From a virus, in IMG/VR virus record IMGVR_UViG_3300025508_000052, positions 1 to 37,829 of that record: a DNA stretch of 37,829 bases; one strand, given 5' to 3'. Positions 6,788 to 32,634 of the stretch are shown one piece after another. Each line of letters begins with the position of its first letter. The first letter of the stretch is position 1. A program made the position numbers and the translations under genes. A model generated the notes under the pieces. The model saw only the letters and a program-made list of their open reading frames with translations, was not told the DNA's origin and made no database searches.

Positions 6788-7162
6788 ATGGCTGCACCGA
6801 ATATTGTAAATGTCGCAACGATCACAGGCAAATCCGCCACCGTTGCCCTTTCTTCAACTTCTCAGACCACGCTGGTCAGCAATGCTGCATCAAGCAACAA
6901 GGTCTTTAAAATCAACATGATCCAAGTGGCAAATGTGGATGGCACCAACGCATGTGACGTTACGGTTGACGTACATAGCGCGGCCTCTGGCGGGGGCACG
7001 GCTTATTCGTTGGTTAGCACGGCATCTGTTGCAGCGGATTCATCTCTTGTTGTTTTGGATAAAAACACTGCGCTTTATCTGGAAGAAAACACTTCAATAA
7101 GTGCAACGGCTGGCACAGCGAATGACTTGGAAGTTATTGTGAGCTACGAAGAAATCTCATAA
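6788..7162 (+). CDS. Small beta-rich tail protein (hypothetical)
   Basis: A 124-residue protein of small and beta-forming residues (Ala, Ser, Thr, Val) with regular alternation, ending in LEVIVSYEEIS. It has an AAAGGAG site at good spacing. Composition and location between the fibre and the blade-repeat genes suggest a virion surface or fibre-joint protein. I recognise the type from uncultured marine podoviruses but no role is established. Confidence 0.5.
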   Translation: MAAPNIVNVATITGKSATVALSSTSQTTLVSNAASSNKVFKINMIQVANVDGTNACDVTVDVHSAASGGGTAYSLVSTASVAADSSLVVLDKNTALYLEENTSISATAGTANDLEVIVSYEEIS

Positions 7163-7173
7163 GGAGAACGGTC

Positions 7174-8634
7174 GTGGTAAGATCTATTGGCAATGTCCAA
7201 CAAGATGCTCAAGTTAGAGCGGTAGCCTCTGGTGCATTGGCTAATGGCGATACTGTTATTGTGAATGCAGATGGCACGGTGAGTGTTGTTGCGGAGGTAG
7301 GCGTTTCAGAAGCAGTGGGAACTCCCACCGCTTTTGGCTCTGGCTCTGGTTTTTTCAATGCTTTAGCTTTTGATACCAACAGTAATAGAATGGTTATAGC
7401 ATATAGAGACAATAATAACAGTAACTATGGAACCGCTGTTGTAGCCACGGTCAATTCTAACAATACTTTAACCCTAGGTACTCCTGTTGTTTTTATAAGC
7501 TCACATACACAAGATGTTGGATTGGTTTTTGATAGTAGTAACAACAAAATAGTAATATGCTTTAAAGATTCTGGTAGTTCATCCTACGGAAAAGCTGTTG
7601 TTGGAACAGTTGATCCATCAGATAATTCAATAAGTTTTGGATCAGTAGTAACATACAGTACCGTGACTTCCACAAGCGAACATAAACCTGTTTTTGACAG
7701 CAGCAATAATAAAATAGTTATTACCTTTTTTGAATCTTCTCCTGCAAACGGTAAATGCATTGTTGGAACAGTATCTGGAACCAGTATTAGTTTTGGGTCT
7801 AGTGTTTCTTTTAACTCAGGGACTACTGCGTTTTTAGATGCCGCATACGACAGCAGCAATAATAAAGTTATTGTTGTCTATACAGATAGTGCTGCAACAG
7901 GAAACCCACTTAATGCTAGAGTAGCAACAGTATCTGGAACCAGCATTAGTTTTGGGACTGAGGTGACGGTGCTTTCTACTGAAACTCAATATAACTCCGC
8001 AGTTTTTGACGAAAATAGCGGAAAAGTTGTTGTGAGTTATATGGACGAAAATAACTCTAGATACGGCACATCAAAGGTTGGAACTGTATCTGGAACCAGC
8101 ATTAGTTTCGGGTCAGCAGTCGTTTGGGAGCAAGGAGAGTCCCAGTATATTTCTGGTGTGTATGATTCTGTTGCGAAACAAGTTGTTCTTTTTTATAATG
8201 ATGGTGATGACGGTAGCAAGGGCAAGATAGTAAGTGGGACAGTAAGTGGTACAAGTATCAGCTATAGTTCTGCAACTCAATTTGAACCAGATAACGCACA
8301 ATCTTTAGGAGTAGGTTACGCTTCTTCTGGCAAAAGTGTTGTTTTTTATCACGATAATGGGACTACTTCTAGGGCGTATGTTGTTTATCAAAACGGCTAC
8401 ACCTCCACCAACCTCACCTCAGAGAACTTCATAGGCTTTGCTGATGGCGCATATGCAGACACGCAAAGCGCAGCGATTAACTCAACCTGCTCCGTGGATC
8501 GCAGCCAAACAAGTTTAACTGCTGGTCAGAAGTATTATGTACAAACGGACGGTTCGCTTGGCCTAACCGCGGCTGATCCATCAGTAGAAGCGGGTACAGC
8601 GATATCAGCTACAGAAATCTTAGTGAAAGGATAG
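7174..8634 (+). CDS. Blade-repeat tail fibre protein A (7 blades)
   Basis: A 486-residue protein starting at GTG 7174 with AAGGAG upstream. Residues 15-38 (AVASGALANGDTVIVNADGT) form a fibre N-terminal module. Residues 46-65 resemble the tail end of a blade. Seven blades of about 50 residues follow from F66, consensus (F/Y)DSxxNKVVIxYxD...GxxxVGTVSGTSISFGSxVxF. The C-terminal 75 residues (LTSENFIG... LTAGQKYYVQTDG... SVEAGTAISATEILVKG) are a conserved fibre tip or attachment cap. The geometry suggests one seven-bladed beta-propeller closed by the N-terminal strand, displayed for glycan or receptor binding. Propeller folding is inferred from the blade count, not shown. Confidence 0.7.
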   Translation: MVRSIGNVQQDAQVRAVASGALANGDTVIVNADGTVSVVAEVGVSEAVGTPTAFGSGSGFFNALAFDTNSNRMVIAYRDNNNSNYGTAVVATVNSNNTLTLGTPVVFISSHTQDVGLVFDSSNNKIVICFKDSGSSSYGKAVVGTVDPSDNSISFGSVVTYSTVTSTSEHKPVFDSSNNKIVITFFESSPANGKCIVGTVSGTSISFGSSVSFNSGTTAFLDAAYDSSNNKVIVVYTDSAATGNPLNARVATVSGTSISFGTEVTVLSTETQYNSAVFDENSGKVVVSYMDENNSRYGTSKVGTVSGTSISFGSAVVWEQGESQYISGVYDSVAKQVVLFYNDGDDGSKGKIVSGTVSGTSISYSSATQFEPDNAQSLGVGYASSGKSVVFYHDNGTTSRAYVVYQNGYTSTNLTSENFIGFADGAYADTQSAAINSTCSVDRSQTSLTAGQKYYVQTDGSLGLTAADPSVEAGTAISATEILVKG

Positions 8635-8637
8635 AAG

Positions 8638-8901
8638 ATGAAGACCATTGTGGAAACGGCAACTAAGTTAAGCAAGTATCTGCTTGCTGATGATGTGGAA
8701 ATCACAGCCACTGCTGACAACATCACTGTAGGTGATCCTGCACAGTTCATTATTGGTGATCTGAACAGCGGTAATGCTACCATCACAGAGAACGTGACCA
8801 ACGCACCAAGCGATTGGACGGGCAACAAGTATAAACTGGATGGCACAACGTGGTCAGCTAATCCTGATTGGGTAGACCCAGAGGCAGAAGACGGGGAATA
8901 A
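8638..8901 (+). CDS. Small fibre-associated protein (hypothetical)
   Basis: An 87-residue acidic protein: N-terminal MKTIVETATKLSKYLLADD, a central FIIGDLNSGNATITENV and a C-terminal DWTGNKYKLDGTTWSANPDW. Similar small proteins stand beside tail fibre genes in several marine phages. It is wedged between two blade-repeat genes with 3-base and 2-base gaps, so it is co-translated with them. It may be a minor fibre subunit or an assembly factor; the sequence shows no chaperone signature. Confidence 0.5.
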   Translation: MKTIVETATKLSKYLLADDVEITATADNITVGDPAQFIIGDLNSGNATITENVTNAPSDWTGNKYKLDGTTWSANPDWVDPEAEDGE

Positions 8902-8903
8902 GC

Positions 8904-10352
8904 ATGAAAATCATTGGTAATAATCCTGATAAGACAAGACAGACGCAGGTTGTTGCCAGTGGTGCGCTGACCAATGGTGCGGCAGTTGTGGTAAATGCTG
9001 ACGGGACGGTGAGTGTTGCTGCGGAGACAAATATTAGCCAAGCTATTGGAACACCTGTTGCAACTTCAAGCTCAAGCACGAACTGGTTTGCTTCTGCATT
9101 TGACCCTGTTGCTAACAAAGTCGTTTTGGTGTTTCAGCAAAGTAATCATCTCAAGGCTGTAGTCGGAACAATTAGCGGCACCTCTATAAGTTTTGGCACT
9201 ATCGTAAATGCTGATTCCAATTCACAGCCAACTTATGTATCGGCTGCATTTGACAGCAATGCGAATAAAGTTGTTATTGCTTATAGAGATGTGGCTAATT
9301 CTAATAGGGGTCAGGCAGTAGTAGGAACTGTTTCGGGCACTTCAATTAGCTTTGGAACTCCCGTTGTTTTTGACATAAATGGGCCTACGGAATTCACCTC
9401 TACTACATTTGATAGTGCTTCTAATAAAATTTTTATAGCGTTCAGAGGTGATGGCGGTACGCAAGGGTATGGAATAGTAGGAACTGTTTCTGGCACTTCA
9501 ATTAGCTTTGGTAGCTCTACCCGTTTTGAAACTGGAGTAACAGCCGATATTTCATGCTGCTTTGACAGCAGTAATAATAAGGTTGTAGTCGCCTATAGGG
9601 ATCAAGGTAATTCTTTTTACGGAACGGCAGTAGTTGGAACAATATCTGGAACTTCTGTGAGTTTTGGAACCCCAGTTGTATTCTATAGCGGAACCAATAG
9701 TTATAACGCTATTACCTTTGACTCAAGCTCAAATAAAGTAGTTATAGCTTGGCAAGCTGTTAGTAATTCTAATTACGGCACGGCTATTGTTGGAACGGTA
9801 AGCGGAACTTCTATTAGTTTTGGAAGTTCGGCCACTTTTGAAAGCGCTAAAGTTCAGTATGTTGCTTCTACATTTGACAGCAATGCCAATAAAGTTGTCA
9901 TATCTTATAGAGATGATGGCAATTCTAACTATGGCACACTTGTAGTTGGAACCGTAAGTGGCACATCAATTAGCTTTGGAACTGCTGTAGTTTTTGAAAC
10001 TGCTACTACAAATAGTAGAACATCTGTGTTTGATAGTGTTTCAAATAAAGTTTTTGTAGGGTATCAAGACGATGGAAATTCTCAAGCCGCTACAGGTGTT
10101 GTATTCCAAAATGCCTCTACAGACACCAACCTTACCAGCGAGAACTACATCGGCACAGCCGCCAGTGGCGTACCTGATGGCAAGGCTGCTAGGATCAACA
10201 TCAAGGGCGATGTAGACGATAACCAATCTAGCTTAACAGCAGGTCAGAGCTACTACGTTCAAACAGATGGCACACTAGGTACGACACCCGCAGATCCCAG
10301 TGTATTCGCGGGTACGGCTGTATCTGCAACGAAACTTATCGTGAAAGGCTAA
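8904..10352 (+). CDS. Blade-repeat tail fibre protein B (7 blades)
   Basis: ATG 8904 (MKIIGNNPDKTRQTQ) is preferred to an upstream in-frame TTG that would overlap the previous gene; it follows that gene's stop by two bases, with GGGGA upstream. The 482-residue product has the same order as protein A: N-terminal VASGALTNGAAVVVNADGTV, a closing-strand-like segment (46-65), seven blades from F66, and the C-terminal cap (LTSENYIG... LTAGQSYYVQTDG... LIVKG). Blade cores are AT-richer than the cap (line 9841-9900 has 22 G/C of 60; line 10141-10200 has 34 of 60). It is likely a receptor-binding fibre with one seven-bladed propeller. Confidence 0.7.
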   Translation: MKIIGNNPDKTRQTQVVASGALTNGAAVVVNADGTVSVAAETNISQAIGTPVATSSSSTNWFASAFDPVANKVVLVFQQSNHLKAVVGTISGTSISFGTIVNADSNSQPTYVSAAFDSNANKVVIAYRDVANSNRGQAVVGTVSGTSISFGTPVVFDINGPTEFTSTTFDSASNKIFIAFRGDGGTQGYGIVGTVSGTSISFGSSTRFETGVTADISCCFDSSNNKVVVAYRDQGNSFYGTAVVGTISGTSVSFGTPVVFYSGTNSYNAITFDSSSNKVVIAWQAVSNSNYGTAIVGTVSGTSISFGSSATFESAKVQYVASTFDSNANKVVISYRDDGNSNYGTLVVGTVSGTSISFGTAVVFETATTNSRTSVFDSVSNKVFVGYQDDGNSQAATGVVFQNASTDTNLTSENYIGTAASGVPDGKAARINIKGDVDDNQSSLTAGQSYYVQTDGTLGTTPADPSVFAGTAVSATKLIVKG

Positions 10353-10355
10353 CAC

Positions 10356-12950
10356 ATGCTCAAGGTTATTGGTGGCGCACAAGAGGGTGAGTTTAAGGCA
10401 GTAGCAAGTGGTACGTTACCTAATGGTAAGCCTGTTGTTGTTAATGCAGATGGTACTGTTAGTGTTGCAGAAGAAACTACACAAGCAGTAGGAACAGTAG
10501 CTACTTCATCAACCCCGCCTAATACAACTTGGGTAGTTTTTGATAGCAACTCCGATAAATTAGTAATTATTTTTGGTGATACGAGTAATAGCGATTATTT
10601 AACCACGATAGTTGGTACTATTAGCGGCACATCCATTACCTTTGGAACTCCTGTTGTAATATCTGAAGGTATATCTCCTTCCGCAGATGGTTACATACTA
10701 GCCGCCACTTTTAATTCTAGTGCAAACAAAATAGTACTTGTGTATGACCCGCAATCTGGAAATGCTGTAGCAAGGGTTGGGACTGTAAGTGGTACATCTA
10801 TTTCTTACGGGTCTACTAGAGACTTGGGGGGAAATTACAATTACTTTGGAATATGTTTTGATAGCAGCAATAATAAAGTAGTAATTGGCTACATAGACAC
10901 CAACGGGAAAGGTACCGCTGTAGTAGGAACAGTCAGTGGAACAAGTATATCTCTAGGTTCGCCTACTCAATTTAATTCATCAACAGGCACAGCGAATATT
11001 TTTTGTGTTTTTGATAGCACAAATAATAAAGTTGTAATTGCATATAGGGATGCATCCAGCTTTTCGGGAGATGGTCCGGGTTCGGCTATTGTCGGAACAG
11101 TTAGCGGTACTTCTATAAGTTTTGGTAGCGAGGTGCAGTTTTCAAGTAACAATGTTCACTATGTTGGAGCTTCTTTTGATGAAGAAAGTTCTAAAGTAGT
11201 GATTGTTTTCTGCGACTTAACGGCTAGTGGCAACACAAACGAGGGTCCACCGAAAGCTATTGTGGGTACAGTAAGTGGAACAAGTATAAGTTTTGGCTCC
11301 TTGGTTACAATAGACAGCGCAAATTCAAGAAATTCCTTTGTTACTTATGACCCCGTTGCAAAAAAACATTTAATTACTTGGCGAGATAGAACTAACGATT
11401 ACGGCTACTATGTAGAAGGCACCGTCAGCGGAACAAGCATTGCATTTGCGACAAAAGCCACATTTAGCGAGACAAATACACAATCTATAACAAGCGGCTC
11501 TGACCCAAACTCTGGTATAAATGTTATTGCTTATCGGGATGGTACAAACACTAATCTTTCTGCTAGAGTTTATCGTTTTCAAACAGCCAACCTCACCTCA
11601 GAGAACTACATCGGTATGTCTGGTGGGGCGATTGATACCGAAGTCATAAGTCAGGCATTAGGTTCAGCCGTTGTGTTTGAAAGTGCAGCCGTTGGTTCCA
11701 ACGTGGCATCTACTTTTGACAGTAATTCAAATAAGGTGGTTATAGTTTACCAAGACACGGCTAACTCTTTCTACGGCACTGCTATTGTCGGTACTGTCAG
11801 TGGGACCTCTATATCTTTTGGAAGCCCTGTTGTGTTTTCGTCAGCGAATAGGACGCAAGAGATACAAATTACTTTTGACTCCAATAGTAATAAAGTCGTA
11901 GTTGCGTATGACGATAAAGCTGACGGGCAAAAGGGTAAAGCCATAGTCGGAACTGTATCTGGAACGTCAATTAGTTTTGGAAGCGCCGTGGTTTTCAATA
12001 ATGGGTCTACCGATACGGGTACACCTAACGCAATTACATTTGACTCTAACAGCAATAAGGTCGTAATTGCCTTCCAAGATAAGGCTGATACCAACAAAGG
12101 CAAAGCTATCGTCGGGACGGTTAGCGGAACCTCTATTAGTTTTGGAAGTGAAGCAACCTTTTTAAATGCTGATTATGCCACCCATGTATCGGCAACTTTT
12201 GACTCCAACAGTAACAAGGTTGTTATTGTTTATAAGGACGGCTCTAACTCCACACACGGTTATGCCGTAGTTGGAACTGTTAGCAGTACCTCAATCAGTT
12301 TTGGTACGCCTGTGGTCTTTGAGTCAGCCGCAACAAATAACCCCAACGTAGCTTTTGATACAGTTAATAATAAGATAGTAATTGCATATGCTGACGGAAC
12401 CGTAGGAACAGCGATTGTTGGAACTGTATCTGGAACGGCAATTAGTTTTGGAAGTCCTGTAATTTTTAATAGCACTGAAACCACAAGCCCTAGAGTACGT
12501 TTTGACGCAACCGCAAGTAAAATAGTAATTGCTTACGGAGAGGGCAGTTCTAACGTAGGAACATTTAAAACGGGAACTGTTAGCGGAACATCCATTAGCT
12601 TTGGCTCTGCTACCGTATTTGAAAGTGGTGCTACCAATGGACAAAACGGGTTAGTTTACGACAGTAATGCTGGAAAAATGGTGCTTTCCTATTATTCTGG
12701 TAGCAACTCAGGCTATGGGACTTCTAAGGTGCTTCAAACTGGATACACCAACATTACTAGAGGCGAAGTAGCCGACGGTGACAATGCAACCGTGGACATC
12801 GTAGGCACTGTCTCAAGCAACCAACTGAGCCTCACAGCAGGGCAGCAATACTTTGTGCAGACAGATGGAACGATAGGCACTACAGCAGATAGCCCAAGTG
12901 TGTTGGCGGGAACCGCAATATCTGCTACAGAGTTATTAGTGAAAACATAA
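10356..12950 (+). CDS. Double blade-repeat tail fibre protein C (7+7 blades)
   Basis: An 864-residue protein. After the common N-terminal module come seven blades from F62, then a shortened piece of the C-terminal cap (NLTSENYIGMSGGAID, from residue 412), then immediately a strand like the closing strand (ALGSAVVFESAAV) and seven more blades from F454, ending in a complete cap (LSLTAGQQYFVQTDG... ATELLVKT). This is what an in-frame fusion of two single-propeller genes would give after loss of most of the first cap and the second N-terminal module. Blades 1-4 of the second half are near-identical in protein but use different codons. Probably a two-propeller receptor-binding fibre. Confidence 0.7.
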   Translation: MLKVIGGAQEGEFKAVASGTLPNGKPVVVNADGTVSVAEETTQAVGTVATSSTPPNTTWVVFDSNSDKLVIIFGDTSNSDYLTTIVGTISGTSITFGTPVVISEGISPSADGYILAATFNSSANKIVLVYDPQSGNAVARVGTVSGTSISYGSTRDLGGNYNYFGICFDSSNNKVVIGYIDTNGKGTAVVGTVSGTSISLGSPTQFNSSTGTANIFCVFDSTNNKVVIAYRDASSFSGDGPGSAIVGTVSGTSISFGSEVQFSSNNVHYVGASFDEESSKVVIVFCDLTASGNTNEGPPKAIVGTVSGTSISFGSLVTIDSANSRNSFVTYDPVAKKHLITWRDRTNDYGYYVEGTVSGTSIAFATKATFSETNTQSITSGSDPNSGINVIAYRDGTNTNLSARVYRFQTANLTSENYIGMSGGAIDTEVISQALGSAVVFESAAVGSNVASTFDSNSNKVVIVYQDTANSFYGTAIVGTVSGTSISFGSPVVFSSANRTQEIQITFDSNSNKVVVAYDDKADGQKGKAIVGTVSGTSISFGSAVVFNNGSTDTGTPNAITFDSNSNKVVIAFQDKADTNKGKAIVGTVSGTSISFGSEATFLNADYATHVSATFDSNSNKVVIVYKDGSNSTHGYAVVGTVSSTSISFGTPVVFESAATNNPNVAFDTVNNKIVIAYADGTVGTAIVGTVSGTAISFGSPVIFNSTETTSPRVRFDATASKIVIAYGEGSSNVGTFKTGTVSGTSISFGSATVFESGATNGQNGLVYDSNAGKMVLSYYSGSNSGYGTSKVLQTGYTNITRGEVADGDNATVDIVGTVSSNQLSLTAGQQYFVQTDGTIGTTADSPSVLAGTAISATELLVKT

Positions 12951-12978: not shown

Positions 12979-14916
12979 ATGCCCCTCCAAAAATTACAGT
13001 TCCAACCGGGAATCAACAAAGAAACAACGTCCTATACAAATGAGGGCGGTTGGTTTGATTGCGACAAGGTAAGATTTAGGCAGGGGTTCCCAGAAAAAAT
13101 TGGCGGTTGGGCTAAGTTAGGGCAGAAAAGTTTCCTTGGAACGTGCCGTGCGATGCATCCTTGGCGTACATTAGGTGGGGATCTATATCTTGGTTTGGGT
13201 ACAAGCTCAAAGTATTACATAGAGAGCGGGCAAGGGTATTATGATATCACGCCCCTTGATGTAACCACGGCTGCGGGGGATGTTACGTTTAGCGCAACTA
13301 ATGGATCATCTACGATTACTGTTGCGGATGCTTCTCATGGCAGGGTTGCGGGTGATTTTGTTACTTATAGCGGTGCAGCCACGTTAGGTGGCAACATAAC
13401 TGCTAATGTTCTTAACCAAGAGTATCAGATTGAAGGGATAAGCGATTCCAATTCCTACACGATTATAGCTCGTGAGGTGAACAGTGTTTCCCAAATAACC
13501 GTAGATGGGCAGTACACGCCTACGCCCGTGACAGCTAATGCTTCTGACACAGGTAACGGGGGGTCTTCAGTTGTTGGGGCGTACCAAGTAAGTGTTGGCT
13601 TGAATACATCACTGTTTGGCACAGGTTGGGGCGCAGGAACATGGGGCCGCAATACGTGGGGAAGTGCTGCGTCACTGACGCTGACAGATGTTTTACGCAT
13701 ATGGGGCCATGACAACTTTGGCGAAGACCTTGTTTTAAATGTTCAAGATGAGGGTGTATTTTACTGGGATGCATCTGCGGTAAGTGCCTTAGATACCCGT
13801 GCTGTAAAGTTATCCACCTTAGCTGGGGCAAAATCCTGCCCGACAAAAGCAACTAAAGTCATCGTGTCAGACCGTGACAGGCATGTAATTGCGTTTGGTG
13901 CTGATGGCTTGGGTGGCGCGAATGATGCAGAAGGCAACGGCGTTCAAGACCCATTGCTTATACGTTTTAGTGACCAAGAGAACGCAGCGGATTGGTTCCC
14001 AACTCCAGAGAACACTGCGGGTGATTTGACCATAGGCTCTGGTTCACAGATCGTTACAGCGGTTGAGACGCGGCAACAAGTCATAGTGTTCACAGATATT
14101 TCACTATATTCCATGCAGTTCATAGGCCCCCCGTTTACCTTTGGAATCAACATGATCTCAGAGAACATCACGATACGTGGCCCGTTGTCTGCTGTCGCCG
14201 TTGACGATCAAGTTTATTGGATGGGTAAGAATGAGTTCTATGTTTACAACGGTTCAGTGCAACGGCTTCCTTGTTCTGTACGAGACTACGTGTTCTCAGA
14301 CTTCAATGAGCTTCAGGGCGACAAGTGCTTTGCTTCCGTAAATAGTGCCTTTGGTGAGATATGGTGGTTCTATCCATCTAGCAGTAGCGACAACATCGAC
14401 AGATATGTTGTTTATAACTACCAACAAAGCATATGGTACATTGGCACTTTAGCGCGTTCATTCTGGATTGATCGCGGCGTGTTCAACTTGCCAATAGCAG
14501 CGGGGCTTGACGGTTACTTGTACAACCATGAGACGGGTTTTGATGATGGCAGCAACAATCCTGCCAGCGGCATTTCTGCGTACATTGAGTCTAGTCAGTT
14601 TGACATTGGGGAAGGTGAGCAGTTTTCTTTTGTCCGTAGGCTTATACCAGACCTCACGTTCCGCGACTCAACATCTACAGATGCGGCGGTGAATTTTACA
14701 TTGAAAGCTAGAAACTTTCCCGGCGGTGCATACCTGCAAGAAAACACGAAGAGCGTAGAAAAGACTGCGACAGTACCTGTTGAGCAGTTTACGCAAGATG
14801 CACATGTACGTTTGAGAGGTCGCTCTGTAGCAATAAAGGTGGATAGTTCTGAGAGGGGAACGGCTTGGCGGTTAGGATCTCCAAGAATCGAAGTACGAAC
14901 AGATGGTAAGCGGTAA
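12979..14916 (+). CDS. Large tail protein (nozzle / tail tubular B-like)
   Basis: A 645-residue protein starting MPLQKLQFQPGINKETTSYTNEGGWFDCDKVRFRQGFPEKIGGW (read in two parts). This start is characteristic of a large podovirus tail protein family in marine phages, often annotated as a stabilisation or tail tubular protein and probably equivalent to the tail nozzle (T7 gp12, P22 gp10). The rest is beta-rich with many WG turns, including GWGAGTWGRNTWG near residues 216-228, and the segment SLYSMQFIGPPFTFGINMIS. GAGGAA lies seven bases upstream. It couples to the next gene by TAATG. Confidence 0.62.
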   Translation: MPLQKLQFQPGINKETTSYTNEGGWFDCDKVRFRQGFPEKIGGWAKLGQKSFLGTCRAMHPWRTLGGDLYLGLGTSSKYYIESGQGYYDITPLDVTTAAGDVTFSATNGSSTITVADASHGRVAGDFVTYSGAATLGGNITANVLNQEYQIEGISDSNSYTIIAREVNSVSQITVDGQYTPTPVTANASDTGNGGSSVVGAYQVSVGLNTSLFGTGWGAGTWGRNTWGSAASLTLTDVLRIWGHDNFGEDLVLNVQDEGVFYWDASAVSALDTRAVKLSTLAGAKSCPTKATKVIVSDRDRHVIAFGADGLGGANDAEGNGVQDPLLIRFSDQENAADWFPTPENTAGDLTIGSGSQIVTAVETRQQVIVFTDISLYSMQFIGPPFTFGINMISENITIRGPLSAVAVDDQVYWMGKNEFYVYNGSVQRLPCSVRDYVFSDFNELQGDKCFASVNSAFGEIWWFYPSSSSDNIDRYVVYNYQQSIWYIGTLARSFWIDRGVFNLPIAAGLDGYLYNHETGFDDGSNNPASGISAYIESSQFDIGEGEQFSFVRRLIPDLTFRDSTSTDAAVNFTLKARNFPGGAYLQENTKSVEKTATVPVEQFTQDAHVRLRGRSVAIKVDSSERGTAWRLGSPRIEVRTDGKR

Positions 14917-26115: not shown

Positions 26116-27477
26116 ATGGCTACGTTTAGTAATAAAGATTATTCTGGTCCTTTTTCAAGCAAGTACGAAGAAGATGAAGCGCTTTCAGGAAACCGTGGTA
26201 ACCAAGCGAGGCACATGGCGACACAAGCCCGTCACAGTCAGGGCCTTACGGGCAGCGGACGGATTGACACTTCCGCCTTTGGCAGGAATCGCGATGTTTT
26301 TGGAAATGATCAATATGAAAAGGCTACGGATAATCCTCTTAATTCTTTAATTCGCTTTGCCAATAGACCGCAAACCAATTTTTCGCAGTCTAGTGGCGCA
26401 CAAATGGCTACAAATCAATTTCGCCCAGAAATGTTGGAAGAACAAGCCCCCGCAAACCCTACACAAAGCGGCCTTGGAAGTTTTTTAAATCGGTTTGGAC
26501 AAGATGTCCAAATGGGCCTGTCTAACATATTGTCAGGCGGAGCTTTTCAAAATGACCCCAATGAACAAATTAATCGTTTAGTAGAAAGAGGGTATTCCCT
26601 CAGTGACGCGGCTGATTTTGTAAACAGTACGCAGAGAACGATGGAGCAGAATAATATTCAAAGAGCATTGTACGGGGATACTTCTGATCCATCATCCAGC
26701 GTTCTGAGTGGGGACGAGGGAACTGGCTTAGGAGACATTGTGATGGACGGAACAGGTGACGGGGGAACAGGTGACGAGGGAACAGGCGTACCTAGCAGCA
26801 CAGACTTTCGATTTTTTGGAGGTTATAATCCCGTCTCGCGCTCCGACGTTCTTGTGCCGTCTACGTTTCGGCAGGACATAAGGAGGCCTGATGCACGTTT
26901 AGACCCGGTTTTTCCGCAACGCCCTGACGGTGGTGATTATAGACCATTGCCCATAGATAGAACAGACCCCATTTTTAGAGAACAGCCTAGTGATCAAGGC
27001 TTTGATTTTGGTGCTCCTGCAAATGTGGGTGACACGTATTTTGATCCTGAATTAAATACGACGTATGAGTATACGGAAAAGCCTAATGGCAGAGGCGGAA
27101 CGTATCAAGGCTGGGATATTGTGTCGGGCACGGGTGGAACTGTGGGTTTGTTTGGAGCGCAGCCTGAAAACAAGATTTCTGCGGGTATAATGGCCGATCC
27201 ACAGATGCCGGGTCCGGGTCAGTTTAGCACGATGCAAGAGTTGATGGATTATCAACAACAATTTCCGTCGCTAAACTTGATGGGCGAATACAAACGCTTA
27301 AGGAACGATCCTAATTATCGGGGTGACGGAACAAATTTTGGCATGATTGAAAATAATTCTTATCGTCCATCTGGAAATCCTTTAATAAACAGGGACATGT
27401 TTGCTCAAGGCGGAGTAGACCGCCTGTTTGGTAACGAGCAAGCGCCGCCGTACATGTACCAAGGTATTATGAGCTAA
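26116..27477 (+). CDS. Gly/Asp-rich late protein (hypothetical)
   Basis: A 453-residue protein, polar and apparently largely disordered. It contains a Gly/Asp/Thr-rich tract around residues 205-230 (GDEGTGLGDIV, GTGDGGTGDEGTG), many Asn/Asp/Pro/Arg segments (FRQDIRRPDARLDPVFPQR), and a compact WDIVSG-containing part. The C-terminus is FAQGGVDRLFGNEQAPPYMYQ, again a short GG motif. GGAG eight bases upstream supports the start. It is translationally coupled to the multidomain gene that follows (TAATG). No recognised domain; probably a virion component. Confidence 0.45.
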   Translation: MATFSNKDYSGPFSSKYEEDEALSGNRGNQARHMATQARHSQGLTGSGRIDTSAFGRNRDVFGNDQYEKATDNPLNSLIRFANRPQTNFSQSSGAQMATNQFRPEMLEEQAPANPTQSGLGSFLNRFGQDVQMGLSNILSGGAFQNDPNEQINRLVERGYSLSDAADFVNSTQRTMEQNNIQRALYGDTSDPSSSVLSGDEGTGLGDIVMDGTGDGGTGDEGTGVPSSTDFRFFGGYNPVSRSDVLVPSTFRQDIRRPDARLDPVFPQRPDGGDYRPLPIDRTDPIFREQPSDQGFDFGAPANVGDTYFDPELNTTYEYTEKPNGRGGTYQGWDIVSGTGGTVGLFGAQPENKISAGIMADPQMPGPGQFSTMQELMDYQQQFPSLNLMGEYKRLRNDPNYRGDGTNFGMIENNSYRPSGNPLINRDMFAQGGVDRLFGNEQAPPYMYQGIMS

Positions 27478-30400
27478 TGGCTGACGTTCCCGCACCAGTA
27501 GAAACCAACCGCGGCCCACGGGTCCGGACAAATTCCAAGGGCCTTGGTTCGTTTATTCCGCCAGAGCTTAAAGAAACAGGTCGGCAGGCTTTAAACCTTG
27601 CTTCTGCTATAGATCCTGTCCAAGGTATTCTGCGGGGTATGAGTGCTAGTGGACGCGCCGCAGATACAGATCTAAGTCCGGAAGAACGCAGAGCCGCCTT
27701 AATAGAAGCGGGTATTGAAACCGCGGCTCCTTTGGCCATGATGGGTTTAGGCTCGTTAGCCAAGCAACCCGTAAAAGCTACTGTTTTGGATATTCTTACT
27801 CCAACGGGTGCGCCGCAAGCTGTGGTAGACGATGTTTCAGATCCTAGCCGCCGTGCGTTTATGAAAGGCGCGGTAGCTACGGGAGGCATTGCAGCCATTG
27901 CTCCAGACGTAATCACAGAAGCTTTGGAGAGAGTTCCTGCGGCGGTTAAAAAGCTTAAACCTATTCCGAATCCTATTGATATTTTTACCCAAAACATGAA
28001 GATTTTGCGCCGTGAGATGGAAGAGGCCTACGACGCTGCGGACGATATGCCGTATGGTTCTACCATGAGCCGCGACTACGACGAAGCATCCGCAGAAGCC
28101 TACAACGAAGCTATACAGAATGCTGAGAAACTTGCATATGATTTAGACGCAACTACAGAAATGGATTTGCGCGAGCTTATTTCTGATATTGGGCCCAAAC
28201 AAATTGCTGAAGCCGCGGATGAGTCGTTAGAAGAAATATCTCAGGCTTTGACTGACTTTAGAATGGTCAGTGAGGATGAGTACATTGAACAGATGATCCC
28301 GCTCGCAGAAGAAATACAACGCCGCGGTTTGTTAGAGGTTAAAGACAACGGCATATTCCAATATCCGTATGCTCGTACCGTCGTAGAAGACGTCGAAGAT
28401 TACCGTGTTGGTGAAAACAGAGCTAGGAATAACTCCGCGATTATTGACAGGCCGCGGGATCTTCAAATGACGGAAGGCGACAAATATGTAACTTCTAATC
28501 AACAACCATTAAAACAGGAACAATTAAGAAACATAATAATTAAAGGCGAGGCCGACGGCGAAAGTGTCGAGGCGATAAACAAAAAGGTGGTGGACGCTGC
28601 AACGCGCTTGAAAGTTCCTTACCCACAAAGAGCCTTTGAGAACCCAAAGGTAGAGTATGTTAATACCCAGACTATTGCGGACAACGTAGCTCAATTTAAC
28701 TTTCCGCGTTATGACGTTGGTAAGTTTGGTGGGGATTTTGAAAGCGGTGACATGGCGAACATGCCGGGGGTGCTGGAGAAATTTCAGGCTTCCGGAAAAG
28801 AAACGCTTAAAGAGAATATTTTTAACGAGGGCATCAAAAAACCAATTGAGATTGAAGTCGTTATGTCAAACGGTGGTATTAATATTGGTCAAGGACACCA
28901 TCGTTTGCAAGCTGCACTAGAGCTTGGGATTCCAGAAATACCCGTAATTGTGACCACAAAAGCTAACCCTCGCGCAAAAGGTATGGAAGTTATGCGGTCT
29001 GCAACTTTGGACACTTCTGGTTTAAAAACGGGGCAAACCTATTCTTTTTCTGAGCTTGGCTTGAAACAACGTTTAAAAACACCAAAAGAAACACCGGAAG
29101 AAATTCAAGCCCGTGGTGGCACGGTATTTAGCGATTTCAACACTGGCGATGTTTCTGACAGAAAGTTTCCTCAATATGAAACACCCATGCGCGAAGGCTT
29201 CTTTCGGGTCATAGATGAAAAAGCCGACGGCGGCGAGATGCGCAAGGGCGTTGGTTCGTTGAGCGAGACTGCCCGTCGTATGAACGAGGGCGGGGAGGCT
29301 AAAATAGATACAAGAAGCGGACAAGAAGTAAGGCAATCTATTAGAGACGCTTTAAAAAATCTCAATGATACAGAAATTCAAGACCAGTGGGGGAAATCTC
29401 GTAAAGAGTTAAAGACGGCGTTAGACATGCTGATTTTACAAGAGTACCACGGTGAATATGAACCTCCCGTAACTCAAGGAGTAGGATCACTTAGTGAAAC
29501 GGCCCGTCGTATGAACGAGGGCGGCGAGGCTAATATAAACTATTCTTTAGGGGATATTGAGTACCGCGTTGATTTAGAGCCGCACATGGACCCGTTGGCG
29601 GAGATGGGTTTCGACGTTAATAAAATTGATTACGACATGATGTATGATCGCTCAAATGATAGGTCGCAGGGTTCTCATTTTAACCCTAACAATGATAGGA
29701 TACTAATTAGTCCGGAAGATTATTCTTCAAAAGGAGTTGCGGCCCATGAAATGCGGCATCGTGGTTTAGAAAGGCTTTTTCGTATTGTAGAACAGGGGTA
29801 TCCTACCGCGAAAAAGTTAGGCTTATCTAAAGAAGATTATTTAAAAATTCTTAGACTGTATAAGTTAGAGCAACAGCAAGACCGTCAGCGTCGTGTAAAC
29901 GATCCTGATTTTGACTATTCCGATTACGCGCATGAGAAAATTGCGGAGGGTTTTGAAAAGGATGAAACAATCATCCGTGGTGCGAAGTATTTTTTAAACA
30001 ATCCTAATGCGCCTGTTTTTACTTTTGACCGCAAAGAGCGTCGTCCAACAACGCCCGCGGAACGTTTGGCTTTAATGCAGGATTTAGTGCGAGAAAACGC
30101 CATGTCTGGGGGACAAGCTTTTGGTCCGGATTTAGCAATTCAGAAATCAATTACTTCGCCAACTTCTATGGAAGCTTTTAGGGAAACAGGGGGCCGTGCG
30201 GAAATAGATCGATATTTAGACGAAGGTCCGCAAAACACACCTGAAAACATTGTTGAATTTGCCGAGCAGGCTTTGGCGGCACAAAGGTATGCTGACATAA
30301 TCAACGAAAGAAATAAAACTATTATGCGAAATTCTTCCGAATATGCGATGGGCGGCGAGGTATCCGGCCCGCCTCCGGATCGCGGTCCAACGCCACAGGG

Positions 30401-31208
30401 AATAGGATCACTTAGTGAAACAGCCCGTCGTATGAACGAGGGCGGGCCGTCCTCTATTGATGATGAAATAAACGCAATCGTGCCCTCTGTAATAATGGCA
30501 GAAAGCAGTAACGATCCAAAGGCAGTCAGTGAAGACGGAGCCATTGGGTTGATGCAGGTTTTGCCGTCCACGGCCATGAAACCGGGTTACGGGCTTCCAA
30601 CCATCTTTGAGCTTGCTCGCGAACAAGGCTTTGTCGTAGACGAAGAAACCCCTGAGACAGCAACACAACTATTGTTCATGCCCGATCTAAACGTAGAGTT
30701 TGGCTCGCGGTATCTTAAAGCCATGCGCAACGAATACGATACGATGGAAGATGCGCTCCGCGCCTACAACGCTGGGCCCGGAAACTTTAACGATTACTTG
30801 GCTAAGGGTCGTGACTTGAGCGCATTGGACGATGAGGCCGTACAGTATCCGTTGCGGGTCGCCGCGGCAGGACAGGGAATAAACCCCAACGAGCCTGCGC
30901 AATACGAAGCGTTTACAGACTCTCCCGAAGCGTTTTCTACCTTTATGAACATGGCTTCAGAAGAGCGTCCGCCTGCTCCGCGCCCTCGTGCTAGACCTTC
31001 TGTCACGTATGACGGCCCACGGCCCATGCAGCGTCCAACGTTACCGCAGGAAATAATTGGGCAACCGCTTGCAGACTTAGCCCCGCCTCAAAACCTGCAA
31101 CAAAAATATTCTCTGGAAGGGATTGAACAGATGCTTACTGGAACCAACTCCGAGCTTCTTCTCCCAAGACAGTTTCAGCAAGGTTCACCTTATTCTTCAA
31201 TGCGGTAA
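27477..31208 (+). CDS. Multidomain ejection protein: ParB-like + HExxH + lytic transglycosylase
   Basis: A 1243-residue protein. Residues 122-145 hold DPSRRAFMKG followed by a hydrophobic stretch, a Tat-like pattern in an internal position. About 420-500 is a ParB-like module with GQGHHR at 471-476. H757-E-M-R-H761 is an HExxH zinc-peptidase motif. Residues 1000-1125 are a lytic transglycosylase domain: E1009 (MAESS), GAIGLMQVLPSTA (1021-1033), AYNAGPGN (1096-1103). GVGSLSETARRMNEGG or a near copy occurs at 591-606, 668-683 and 975-990, at the module boundaries. The transglycosylase would cut peptidoglycan during DNA entry, as T7 gp16 does. The other activities are motif-based inference. The 3' end overlaps the opposing helicase gene by 74 bases. 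Confidence 0.75.
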   Translation: MADVPAPVETNRGPRVRTNSKGLGSFIPPELKETGRQALNLASAIDPVQGILRGMSASGRAADTDLSPEERRAALIEAGIETAAPLAMMGLGSLAKQPVKATVLDILTPTGAPQAVVDDVSDPSRRAFMKGAVATGGIAAIAPDVITEALERVPAAVKKLKPIPNPIDIFTQNMKILRREMEEAYDAADDMPYGSTMSRDYDEASAEAYNEAIQNAEKLAYDLDATTEMDLRELISDIGPKQIAEAADESLEEISQALTDFRMVSEDEYIEQMIPLAEEIQRRGLLEVKDNGIFQYPYARTVVEDVEDYRVGENRARNNSAIIDRPRDLQMTEGDKYVTSNQQPLKQEQLRNIIIKGEADGESVEAINKKVVDAATRLKVPYPQRAFENPKVEYVNTQTIADNVAQFNFPRYDVGKFGGDFESGDMANMPGVLEKFQASGKETLKENIFNEGIKKPIEIEVVMSNGGINIGQGHHRLQAALELGIPEIPVIVTTKANPRAKGMEVMRSATLDTSGLKTGQTYSFSELGLKQRLKTPKETPEEIQARGGTVFSDFNTGDVSDRKFPQYETPMREGFFRVIDEKADGGEMRKGVGSLSETARRMNEGGEAKIDTRSGQEVRQSIRDALKNLNDTEIQDQWGKSRKELKTALDMLILQEYHGEYEPPVTQGVGSLSETARRMNEGGEANINYSLGDIEYRVDLEPHMDPLAEMGFDVNKIDYDMMYDRSNDRSQGSHFNPNNDRILISPEDYSSKGVAAHEMRHRGLERLFRIVEQGYPTAKKLGLSKEDYLKILRLYKLEQQQDRQRRVNDPDFDYSDYAHEKIAEGFEKDETIIRGAKYFLNNPNAPVFTFDRKERRPTTPAERLALMQDLVRENAMSGGQAFGPDLAIQKSITSPTSMEAFRETGGRAEIDRYLDEGPQNTPENIVEFAEQALAAQRYADIINERNKTIMRNSSEYAMGGEVSGPPPDRGPTPQGIGSLSETARRMNEGGPSSIDDEINAIVPSVIMAESSNDPKAVSEDGAIGLMQVLPSTAMKPGYGLPTIFELAREQGFVVDEETPETATQLLFMPDLNVEFGSRYLKAMRNEYDTMEDALRAYNAGPGNFNDYLAKGRDLSALDDEAVQYPLRVAAAGQGINPNEPAQYEAFTDSPEAFSTFMNMASEERPPAPRPRARPSVTYDGPRPMQRPTLPQEIIGQPLADLAPPQNLQQKYSLEGIEQMLTGTNSELLLPRQFQQGSPYSSMR
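29247..29294 (+). repeat. Interdomain tag, copy 1
   Basis: Encodes GVGSLSETARRMNEGG (residues 591-606), after the ParB-like module. Bases 29271-29293 are identical to the matching parts of the other two copies. Confidence 0.95.
29478..29525 (+). repeat. Interdomain tag, copy 2
   Basis: Encodes GVGSLSETARRMNEGG (residues 668-683), before the HExxH module. Apart from single wobble changes it matches copy 3 almost throughout. Confidence 0.95.
30399..30446 (+). repeat. Interdomain tag, copy 3
   Basis: Encodes GIGSLSETARRMNEGG (residues 975-990), immediately before the transglycosylase module. Its core 23 bases (30423-30445) are identical in all three copies. Confidence 0.95.
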
Positions 31209-32583
31209 GGATCTTTTCGTCTAGCGTATCCGGCGACACCATATCAATATAGGTGACAGTGTTCTTCTGGCCAATTCGGTGCGCCCTGTCCTCTGATTGC
31301 AGGCGTATCTCCAAATCGTAGCTATTGCTGAAGTAAATCACCGTCGTTGCGGCGGTCAGGGTAATCCCATAACCGCCCGTCTTTGGTTGGCCCACAAAAA
31401 ACCGCAGGCGGTCCTCTGGATCTTGAAAGCGCTCAACGATTTGTTGGCGCTCTTCTTGGGGCGTCTCCCCGTAATAAAGTGCGACTGCTTCGGGCCCAAA
31501 GCAGTCGCGCAGGGCAGAATGTATCCGTTGAATATCGTGGGTGTACGATGCCCAAATTATACATTTTCCCTGAAGCTCTTCCGTAATGCTCATTAGCTCG
31601 TCCAGACGGTTACTGTCCAAGCTTCTGGTTTCTCCTATGTCAGGAGTAAAATGACCGCAGCATATTTGCTGCAAGCGCATAATCTGTGTCAGGACACTGG
31701 TAGTCGTGGCTAACTCTCCGTTGTCCAGTTGGGCCAAGGCCATGTCTTTCATCTGGTTATACAGCTTTCCCTGTTCCGCCGTGAGAGGCACGTAGCGCTT
31801 CGTGTAAAGCTTTTCGGGTAGGTCTAGGCATTCTGACTTCAATATGCGCGTACTGAAGCCTGTCAGGCGCTCGTTAAGCTCTTCTAAGCGTCTATACCCC
31901 ACAATCTCTTGGAACGAGCGGTGACCCATCGTCTGTTGGCGTACTACAGCATACCTGTTCTGGAAAGCAAAGTAACTATTATAGCCCAAGGCCATTGGGG
32001 CCAAGAACGAGCACTGACTGAACAAATCCATAGGGCTCTTTGTAATGGGGGATCCCGTCAGGATGCGGCGGTACTTGGCAAACTTTTGCAGAACTTGGAG
32101 GTTTTTTGTACGCGCTGCCTTACGGTTTTTAATCGTAGTGCTTTCATCCACAATCATCATGTTGTTTGGGTTCTGGACAAGAAATCGTCCCGCAGTCTTT
32201 GCGCCCCGCTGCGTAGAAAAGGCTTCGACATTCATTACAAATATCTTCAGACCATCAAAGTCCTCCATGATAAACTCTTCTAGCATAGCCATGTAAGTTT
32301 TGGTTGTCTTTGGATCCCAACGCACGATGCTGCGCGTAATGCTCTCCGGTAAGTGCGCAGGAAACTCACCCTTCACCCAGTTATCGTACACGCCCTTTGG
32401 AGCTATGACCAAAGCCGCATCCAGTTCGCCCTGCTCATAAAGAAGTCCAATGTTATCAATGGCTACCTTGGATTTACCTGTACCCATTTCCATAAACAAA
32501 GCATAATACTCCGCAGCCCACGATTCGTTGAGCGCATCCGCTTGGTGTTTAAAAGGTTTTGTTTTAAAGTTGTAGTTCTGCAT
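31135..32583 (-). CDS. SNF2-type (SF2) DNA helicase/ATPase
   Basis: 482 residues from ATG 32583 (MQNYNFKTKPFKHQ), chosen because AAGGAG lies six bases upstream; an in-frame extension would run across the promoter region. Motifs: FKHQADAL (11-18), Walker A GTGKS (34-38), motif II DEST (146-149, in place of DEAH), motif III TGSP (176-179), motif VI EDRAHRIGQ (431-439). This is a complete SNF2/Rad54-type core without accessory domains. It probably remodels DNA or clears bound proteins during replication or recombination. It is the only leftward gene seen, and its 3' end overlaps the late operon. Confidence 0.88.
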   Translation of the reverse strand: MQNYNFKTKPFKHQADALNESWAAEYYALFMEMGTGKSKVAIDNIGLLYEQGELDAALVIAPKGVYDNWVKGEFPAHLPESITRSIVRWDPKTTKTYMAMLEEFIMEDFDGLKIFVMNVEAFSTQRGAKTAGRFLVQNPNNMMIVDESTTIKNRKAARTKNLQVLQKFAKYRRILTGSPITKSPMDLFSQCSFLAPMALGYNSYFAFQNRYAVVRQQTMGHRSFQEIVGYRRLEELNERLTGFSTRILKSECLDLPEKLYTKRYVPLTAEQGKLYNQMKDMALAQLDNGELATTTSVLTQIMRLQQICCGHFTPDIGETRSLDSNRLDELMSITEELQGKCIIWASYTHDIQRIHSALRDCFGPEAVALYYGETPQEERQQIVERFQDPEDRLRFFVGQPKTGGYGITLTAATTVIYFSNSYDLEIRLQSEDRAHRIGQKNTVTYIDMVSPDTLDEKILTALKNKVNLAETVLGEEARSWFQ

Positions 32584-32593
32584 CTTTTTCTCC

Positions 32594-32622
32594 TTGACTA
32601 TGGGATAAGATACAACTATATG
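32594..32622 (+). promoter_or_regulatory. Rightward sigma70-like promoter for replication operon
   Basis: TTGACT (32594-32599), a 17-base spacer, then TATATG (32617-32622). The predicted start near 32629 leaves a leader of about 50 bases before the gene at 32680. It fully overlaps the leftward promoter. The -35 box also overlaps the ribosome site of the helicase gene on the other strand. Confidence 0.5.
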
Positions 32623-32634
32623 GGAATATGTCAA
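32607..32634 (-). promoter_or_regulatory. Leftward sigma70-like promoter for the helicase
   Basis: On the minus strand: perfect TTGACA (32634-32629), a 16-base spacer, then TATCTT (32612-32607), giving a predicted start near 32600 and a leader of about 17 bases containing AAGGAG. The best sigma70 match I found in the window. Confidence 0.65.

Follow-up and report, generated by a model that had tools for sequence, protein, structure and literature searches.

Three tandem genes of a marine virus contig encode four predicted seven-bladed propellers on a small base domain, as probable adhesins

A phage can kill only those marine bacteria that it recognises as hosts. In most uncultured marine phages, the adhesins are not recognisable by sequence. 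The window analysed here is the whole of IMG/VR record IMGVR_UViG_3300025508_000052 (37,829 nucleotides), and it raises the question of what three tandem, repeat-bearing genes, named A, B and C, encode and what their products do for the virus. According to the predicted structures, it is nearly certain that A, B and C hold four closed seven-bladed propellers. The three proteins are probably virion adhesins of a marine short-tailed phage, in which a base is combined with exchangeable propellers. The genes are as follows:

7174..8634, plus strand: gene A, 486 amino acids (aa) from a GTG start; class I base and one seven-bladed propeller
8638..8901, plus strand: gene of an 87-aa protein between A and B, a probable assembly chaperone for the propeller proteins
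8904..10352, plus strand: gene B, 482 aa; class II-like base and one seven-bladed propeller
10356..12950, plus strand: gene C, 864 aa; class III base and two seven-bladed propellers

Splitting the proteins at their repeats gives 7 units in A, 7 in B and 14 in C; the 14 form two sets of seven, separated by a linker that measures ~72 residues from unit start to unit start. A hidden Markov model (HMM) of the window blades recovers exactly 7 full blades in A, 7 in B and 14 in C, each with an independent E-value of ~1e-13 or better; because the model was built on these same blades, independent support comes from the relatives and from structure. All three sources bear out the initial annotation, which had counted 28 blades as 7, 7 and 7+7 in three genes. 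Blade length is ~52 residues throughout, and the blades of gene A start at residues 66, 119, 174, 225, 278, 330 and 382. A half-blade, equivalent to HMM positions ~29-52, lies before the ring at residues 46-56 of A (EAVGTPTAFGS) and 42-53 of B (NISQAIGTPVAT), in keeping with the strand-like segment that had been noted near residues 46-65 as the end of a blade. In C, a half-blade precedes each set (~41-51 and 427-440), and in many proteins the HMM reports the N-terminal half-blade as a partial extra match.

AlphaFold2 prediction of B, made with 43 relatives, has a mean predicted local distance difference test score (pLDDT) of 93.9 and a predicted template modelling score (pTM) of 0.88, with four strands (a-b-c-d) per blade. 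Seven-bladed propellers rank first when this model is compared with the Protein Data Bank (PDB): YncE (Z 32.5 over 303 residues, 2.5 A), virginiamycin B lyase (Z 32.0) and the lectins PLL, PHL and BP39L (Z ~30 over 310-317 residues). The matched region starts at residues 41-60, so that many matches include the extra N-terminal strand. The model of C is below that of B in whole-chain confidence (pLDDT 81.4, pTM 0.51), and the mutual placement of its two rings is unreliable. Both rings (~41-410 and 430-799) match seven-bladed structures, the second with Z 33.7 to YncE and the first with a rhamnose-glucuronate lyase over residues 41-410. Thus the structure prediction and fold search that had been proposed as a check place B and both rings of C with solved seven-bladed propellers. 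A half-blade stands before each ring, inside the matched region from residue 41-47 on, and would pair with the last blade. The earlier proposal of four closed rings, with a "velcro" strand as the likely closure, is strongly supported by the two predicted structures, the PDB matches and the fixed number of blades. Sequence searches of A, B and C against Pfam, PHROGs and PDB returned chance-level or single-blade matches only. No WD40, kelch or FG-GAP match in Pfam was found up to E 1, and no WD, YVTN or DxDxDG motifs were found in the three proteins; weak RACK1 matches are consistent with the fold and were not used as evidence of kinship.

The number seven also holds among relatives, which are related to one another and are not independent trials. 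A first sample, collected by searching with B, comprises 46 loci whose proteins form 61 clusters at 60% identity; a second was collected with the unrelated 87-aa gene, in order to avoid selection by the propeller, and comprises 80 loci, 78 of them new. Seven blades were detected in 48 complete proteins of the first sample and 121 of the second, and 14 blades in 15 and 41, respectively. Over 1400 pairs of adjacent blades in relatives, the spacing is 52.3 +/- 2.1 residues. In the single-insert proteins (n=116), the distance between the two halves of the base is 350-395 residues (mean 371, sd 7.4), and with a blade period of 52.3 none of the 116 shows the whole-period shift of a six- or eight-blade insert. 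Larger numbers come in sevens: one relative (L026) has 21 blades as 3x7, and L139:1-5931 has 28 as 4x7 in one open frame with a base C-half after each set. The L139 contig is binned as Euryarchaeota, and a mis-binned virus is more likely.

Counts of 5, 6, 8, 11, 12 and 13 were detected as well. In the cases inspected, a count of 8 arises from the N-terminal half-blade scored as a blade, and low counts occur mostly where a gap has double length or the first blade is missing; in one protein of 815 aa (L122) the seventh blade is present and a frame break lies inside the base at the end. The odd counts are largely accounted for, least fully in a few divergent proteins (L040, L043, L006/L007 and L078). 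Retention of 7, 14, 21 and 28 blades means that the unit of duplication is the whole folded ring, not the single repeat.

The blades of the window are similar as protein and diverged as DNA, with mean nonsynonymous (pN) and synonymous (pS) differences of 0.31 and 0.77 in conserved blocks, and the serines of the SGTSIS motif are encoded by both AGY and TCN codons across blades. These values and the mixed serine codons indicate that the blades are old and held by selection. Recent slippage as their origin is ruled out by the DNA divergence of blades alike in protein.

Among 84,980 genomes scanned, 7 loci were found, most of them on contigs of metagenome-assembled genomes and some of these short; a plasmid search gave no match. 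A Peregrinibacteria protein (L143:2914 onwards) has similar blades, about seven in number, and a signal-like N-terminus but no base, and may be a cellular relative of the propeller.

The segments that lie outside the blades are well supported, by comparison of sequences, as one small domain in two halves, with the propellers inserted in its loops. The initial annotation, whose blades have stood, missed this separate base and the exchange of propellers between bases. The parts of the base are:

7174..7290, plus strand: base N-half of gene A, a conserved segment common to A, B and C
8404..8631, plus strand: base C-half of gene A (TNLTSENFIG...ILVKG), by sequence comparison
8904..9020, plus strand: base N-half of gene B, by sequence comparison
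10122..10349, plus strand: base C-half of gene B; joined with the N-half, a weak Phage_cement_2 match
10356..10470, plus strand: base N-half of gene C, by alignment
11583..11630, plus strand: base middle strand of gene C (NLTSENYIGMSGG), between the two propellers by alignment
12771..12947, plus strand: remainder of the base C-half of gene C (VADGDNATVDIVG...LLVKT), by alignment

In pairwise comparison of 46 proteins, the identities of N-half and C-half correlate with r 0.65, against 0.39 and 0.27 for the propeller with each of the halves. The alignment places the second propeller of C inside the base C-half, between NLTSENYIGMSGG and VADGxNATVDI, where it occupies the loop after that middle strand. 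Most bases sort by their C-half into three classes, and the gene order in many loci is I, 87-aa gene, II, III; the base of window B forms, together with L003, a small separate group that resembles class II.

The two halves were joined in 16 base sequences and compared with known families at E up to 1. Phage_cement_2 (PF09956) is matched by 8 of the 16 (best E 1.7e-5), the minor capsid protein gp53 of XM1 by 7 (best E 2.3e-5) and gp24 of E217 by 8 (E 0.016). Eight sequences match phrog_1731 (virion structural protein), and all 16 match phrog_4368, a family of unknown function. The base of window B scores 16 bits against Phage_cement_2, for which the curated cut-off is 24, and is therefore not assigned to that family. 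A match of the base to the A-1(L) neck fibre (E 0.42) was rejected as evidence.

Propellers have been swapped between base classes, doubled, or replaced by other domains, a conclusion well supported by the sequences compared. The propeller of window B is 85% identical to that of gene I of L001, while the base C-halves share 65% and the N-halves 58%; in two further cases the propellers are 80-82% and the base C-halves 64-71% identical. The class II gene of the L001 contig, which is also listed as L128 (L128:7045-8622), keeps the base and carries an unrelated insert of ~410 residues. The same holds for the gene L130:8261-9889, and this divergent insert may be another seven-repeat propeller. Proteins of ~740-750 residues have a further insert, placed closer to the end of the base, with five repeats that are related to the SGL propeller profile. 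In L061, L092, L122, L012 and L034 the repeats of such a second insert number exactly five, which suggests a five-bladed propeller alongside the seven-bladed one. An apparent small non-propeller insert occurs in the base of L036.

Where on the virion these proteins act is addressed by their neighbours. Upstream of A lie genes with matches to virion structural, tail and tail-fibre families. The first gene after C (12979-14916) is nozzle-like and related to proteins annotated as stabilization or tail. By this gene, the nearest isolates are Phage DSL-LC04 and Pelagibacter phage HTVC023P. The flanking genes are in the same order in Phage DSL-LC04 (identities 63%, 36%, 38% and 68%), with a glycine-rich protein and a concanavalin-like lectin in place of the propeller genes; HTVC023P has four tandem glycine-rich genes upstream of its tail genes. 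By analogy with known phage adhesins, the glycine-rich genes of these cultured relatives can be read as adhesins. The 87-aa protein is 80-92% identical in the closest loci, occupies the same position in many of them, and shares 43% identity over 81 aa with a Lentibacter phage protein; the latter has a Phage_tail_APC domain C-terminal to the shared part. In Lentibacter phage ICBM2, the Phage_tail_APC chaperone gene comes after the propeller gene. The 87-aa protein is thus probably the assembly chaperone of the propeller proteins. Among relatives, L026 joins Mtd_N (E 1e-14) to base and propeller, and long fibre-like N-terminal parts occur on L004, L046, L127, L133 and Marine virus AG-345-O18. 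Taken together, the gene neighbourhood, the chaperone-like gene, the relatives with fibre-like parts or Mtd_N, and the adhesin-like genes in the same slot favour tail adhesins that likely bind receptors. The four tandem propellers of the initial annotation are borne out, and its terms "fibre genes" and "receptor-binding array" rest on this context.

Several observations weigh against this placement. In Pfam and PHROGs searches, A, B and C have no recognisable fibre shaft or Mtd_N anchor, and the 87-aa protein itself has no family match and lacks the Phage_tail_APC domain. The resemblance of the base to capsid cement domains is compatible with decoration of the head. It is accordingly conceivable, if unlikely, that the three proteins are a cement-type capsid decoration that displays its propellers on the head, perhaps to attach weakly to cells or particles, and are not primary tail adhesins; the 7-8 of 16 joined bases that match the cement families and the eight that match phrog_1731 speak for it. 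The window protein, however, scores below the cut-off, the genes lie among tail genes directly before the nozzle-like gene, A and B flank a relative of a tail chaperone, and the combination of base and propeller is fused in relatives to fibre-like chains and to Mtd_N. Fibres, moreover, may re-use cement-like domains.

That the propellers are tail enzymes, such as glycan lyases or sialidase-like depolymerases, is decidedly improbable. Several of the structure matches are carbohydrate enzymes: the first ring of C matches a lyase, for instance, and the Foldseek list includes sialidases. A common fold, however, does not show function. No Asp-box repeats of the sialidase/endosialidase kind and no enzyme family match were found in A, B and C, and with blades so nearly identical, no one active site stands out. 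An open solenoid or stacked strands, the outcome named beforehand as refuting closed rings, has only the repeats themselves in its favour and can be set aside almost entirely in view of the confident ring prediction, Z above 30 to closed rings, the closing half-blade and seven blades per set fixed in >100 relatives.

Among 609 distinct blades, conservation is highest in the CD loop and the outer strand, and variability is highest in the BC loop and where strand a begins. Substitutions per site, from 15 close pairs that are non-independent, are 0.28 in the BC loop, 0.22 in strand a, 0.16 in the AB loop and 0.03 in the CD loop. The signal is moderate, which counts as a further reservation, and it fits binding by the DA/BC side.

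Among known systems, PLL, PHL and BP39L of Photorhabdus and Burkholderia are seven-bladed lectins, and they are the best functional analogues among the structure matches. Their likeness is structural only: sequence identity is 7-12%, they are not phage proteins, and they have no cement-like base. To our knowledge, no propeller inserts occur in the cement proteins Phage_cement_2, E217 gp24/Pam3 gp6 and XM1 gp53, whose profile likeness to the joined base halves is weak and, for the window base, sub-cut-off. Related propeller proteins, 27-31% identical, are a hypothetical protein of Lentibacter phage vB_LenP_ICBM2 and a 1087-aa protein of Marine virus AG-345-O18. Both are unannotated single copies, unlike the three-gene set of the window; the former stands beside a full Phage_tail_APC chaperone and the latter lies within a long fibre-like chain. 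Another ICBM2 gene beside a tail chaperone gene (L055:3276-4487) matches the seven-bladed lactonase profile PF10282 (E 3.6e-7). Literature searches on AG-345-O18, on DUF2190 with cement and on propellers in pelagiphages found nothing relevant.

Propellers in phage tails have precedents. The phiKZ protein gp131C (PDB 4GBF) is a seven-bladed propeller proposed as a phage receptor-binding domain; it is one domain of a protein at the periphery of a myophage baseplate, and the passage on it describes no propeller array or exchange (PMC4901313). It is not among the matches listed for the models of B and C, an absence that excludes nothing. The receptor-binding protein of Staphylococcus phage phi11 has a propeller closed by an N-terminal strand, and differs in its five blades, trimeric state and coiled-coil stem, with no sequence relationship seen (PMC4901313). 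The nozzle of phage SU10, named by the T7-like convention, is a seven-bladed propeller with velcro closure in a short-tailed phage (PMC9509320); it is a tail-channel component, and the nozzle-like gene of the window is a separate one. Seven-bladed propellers in phages are therefore already known, while this propeller family and the design with exchangeable cassettes look new.

Elsewhere in the window, positions 6788-7162 encode a 124-aa protein that shares 63% identity with a "putative lectin" of Phage DSL-LC04, occurs also in Synechococcus and Pelagibacter phages, and always lies shortly upstream of the propeller genes. The 1243-aa product of positions 27477-31208 includes one stretch that resembles ParB (~435-505) and another that resembles a lytic transglycosylase (~998-1130), and is probably an internal virion protein with two enzyme-like parts. 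A 499-aa frame on the minus strand (31135-32634) overlaps the end of this gene and matches the DNA helicase family phrog_62 (E 6e-129), so that the strand changes there.

A mechanism can be proposed from these data. The base would be a small beta domain formed from two parts of the same chain, an N-half of 40 residues and a C-half of 75, and would probably dock the propeller protein on the virion, most likely on the tail. One loop of the base would bear a closed seven-bladed propeller and, in C, a second loop would bear another; as each genome tends to have the three base classes in fixed order, it would show three to six propellers. The rings would contact host surface glycans or proteins, mainly by the more variable side of strand a and the BC loop. 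Recombination would move, double or replace propellers while the base stays, shifting specificity without disturbing assembly. By a slight balance of probability, this is a general display platform of marine phages, with a cement-like base, up to three insertion loops that can each accept an entire propeller (with seven blades in the first two loops, and with five repeats, or as another kind of domain, at further sites), three base classes per genome, and heads for host recognition that are combined by recombination. The propeller family occurs in many marine virus contigs despite the lack of an informative Pfam, PHROG or PDB sequence match. If a fixed base with exchangeable propellers is the true arrangement, it would offer a way to locate recognition domains in such contigs, would predict which part varies with the host, and would provide a scaffold for propeller-binding tests.

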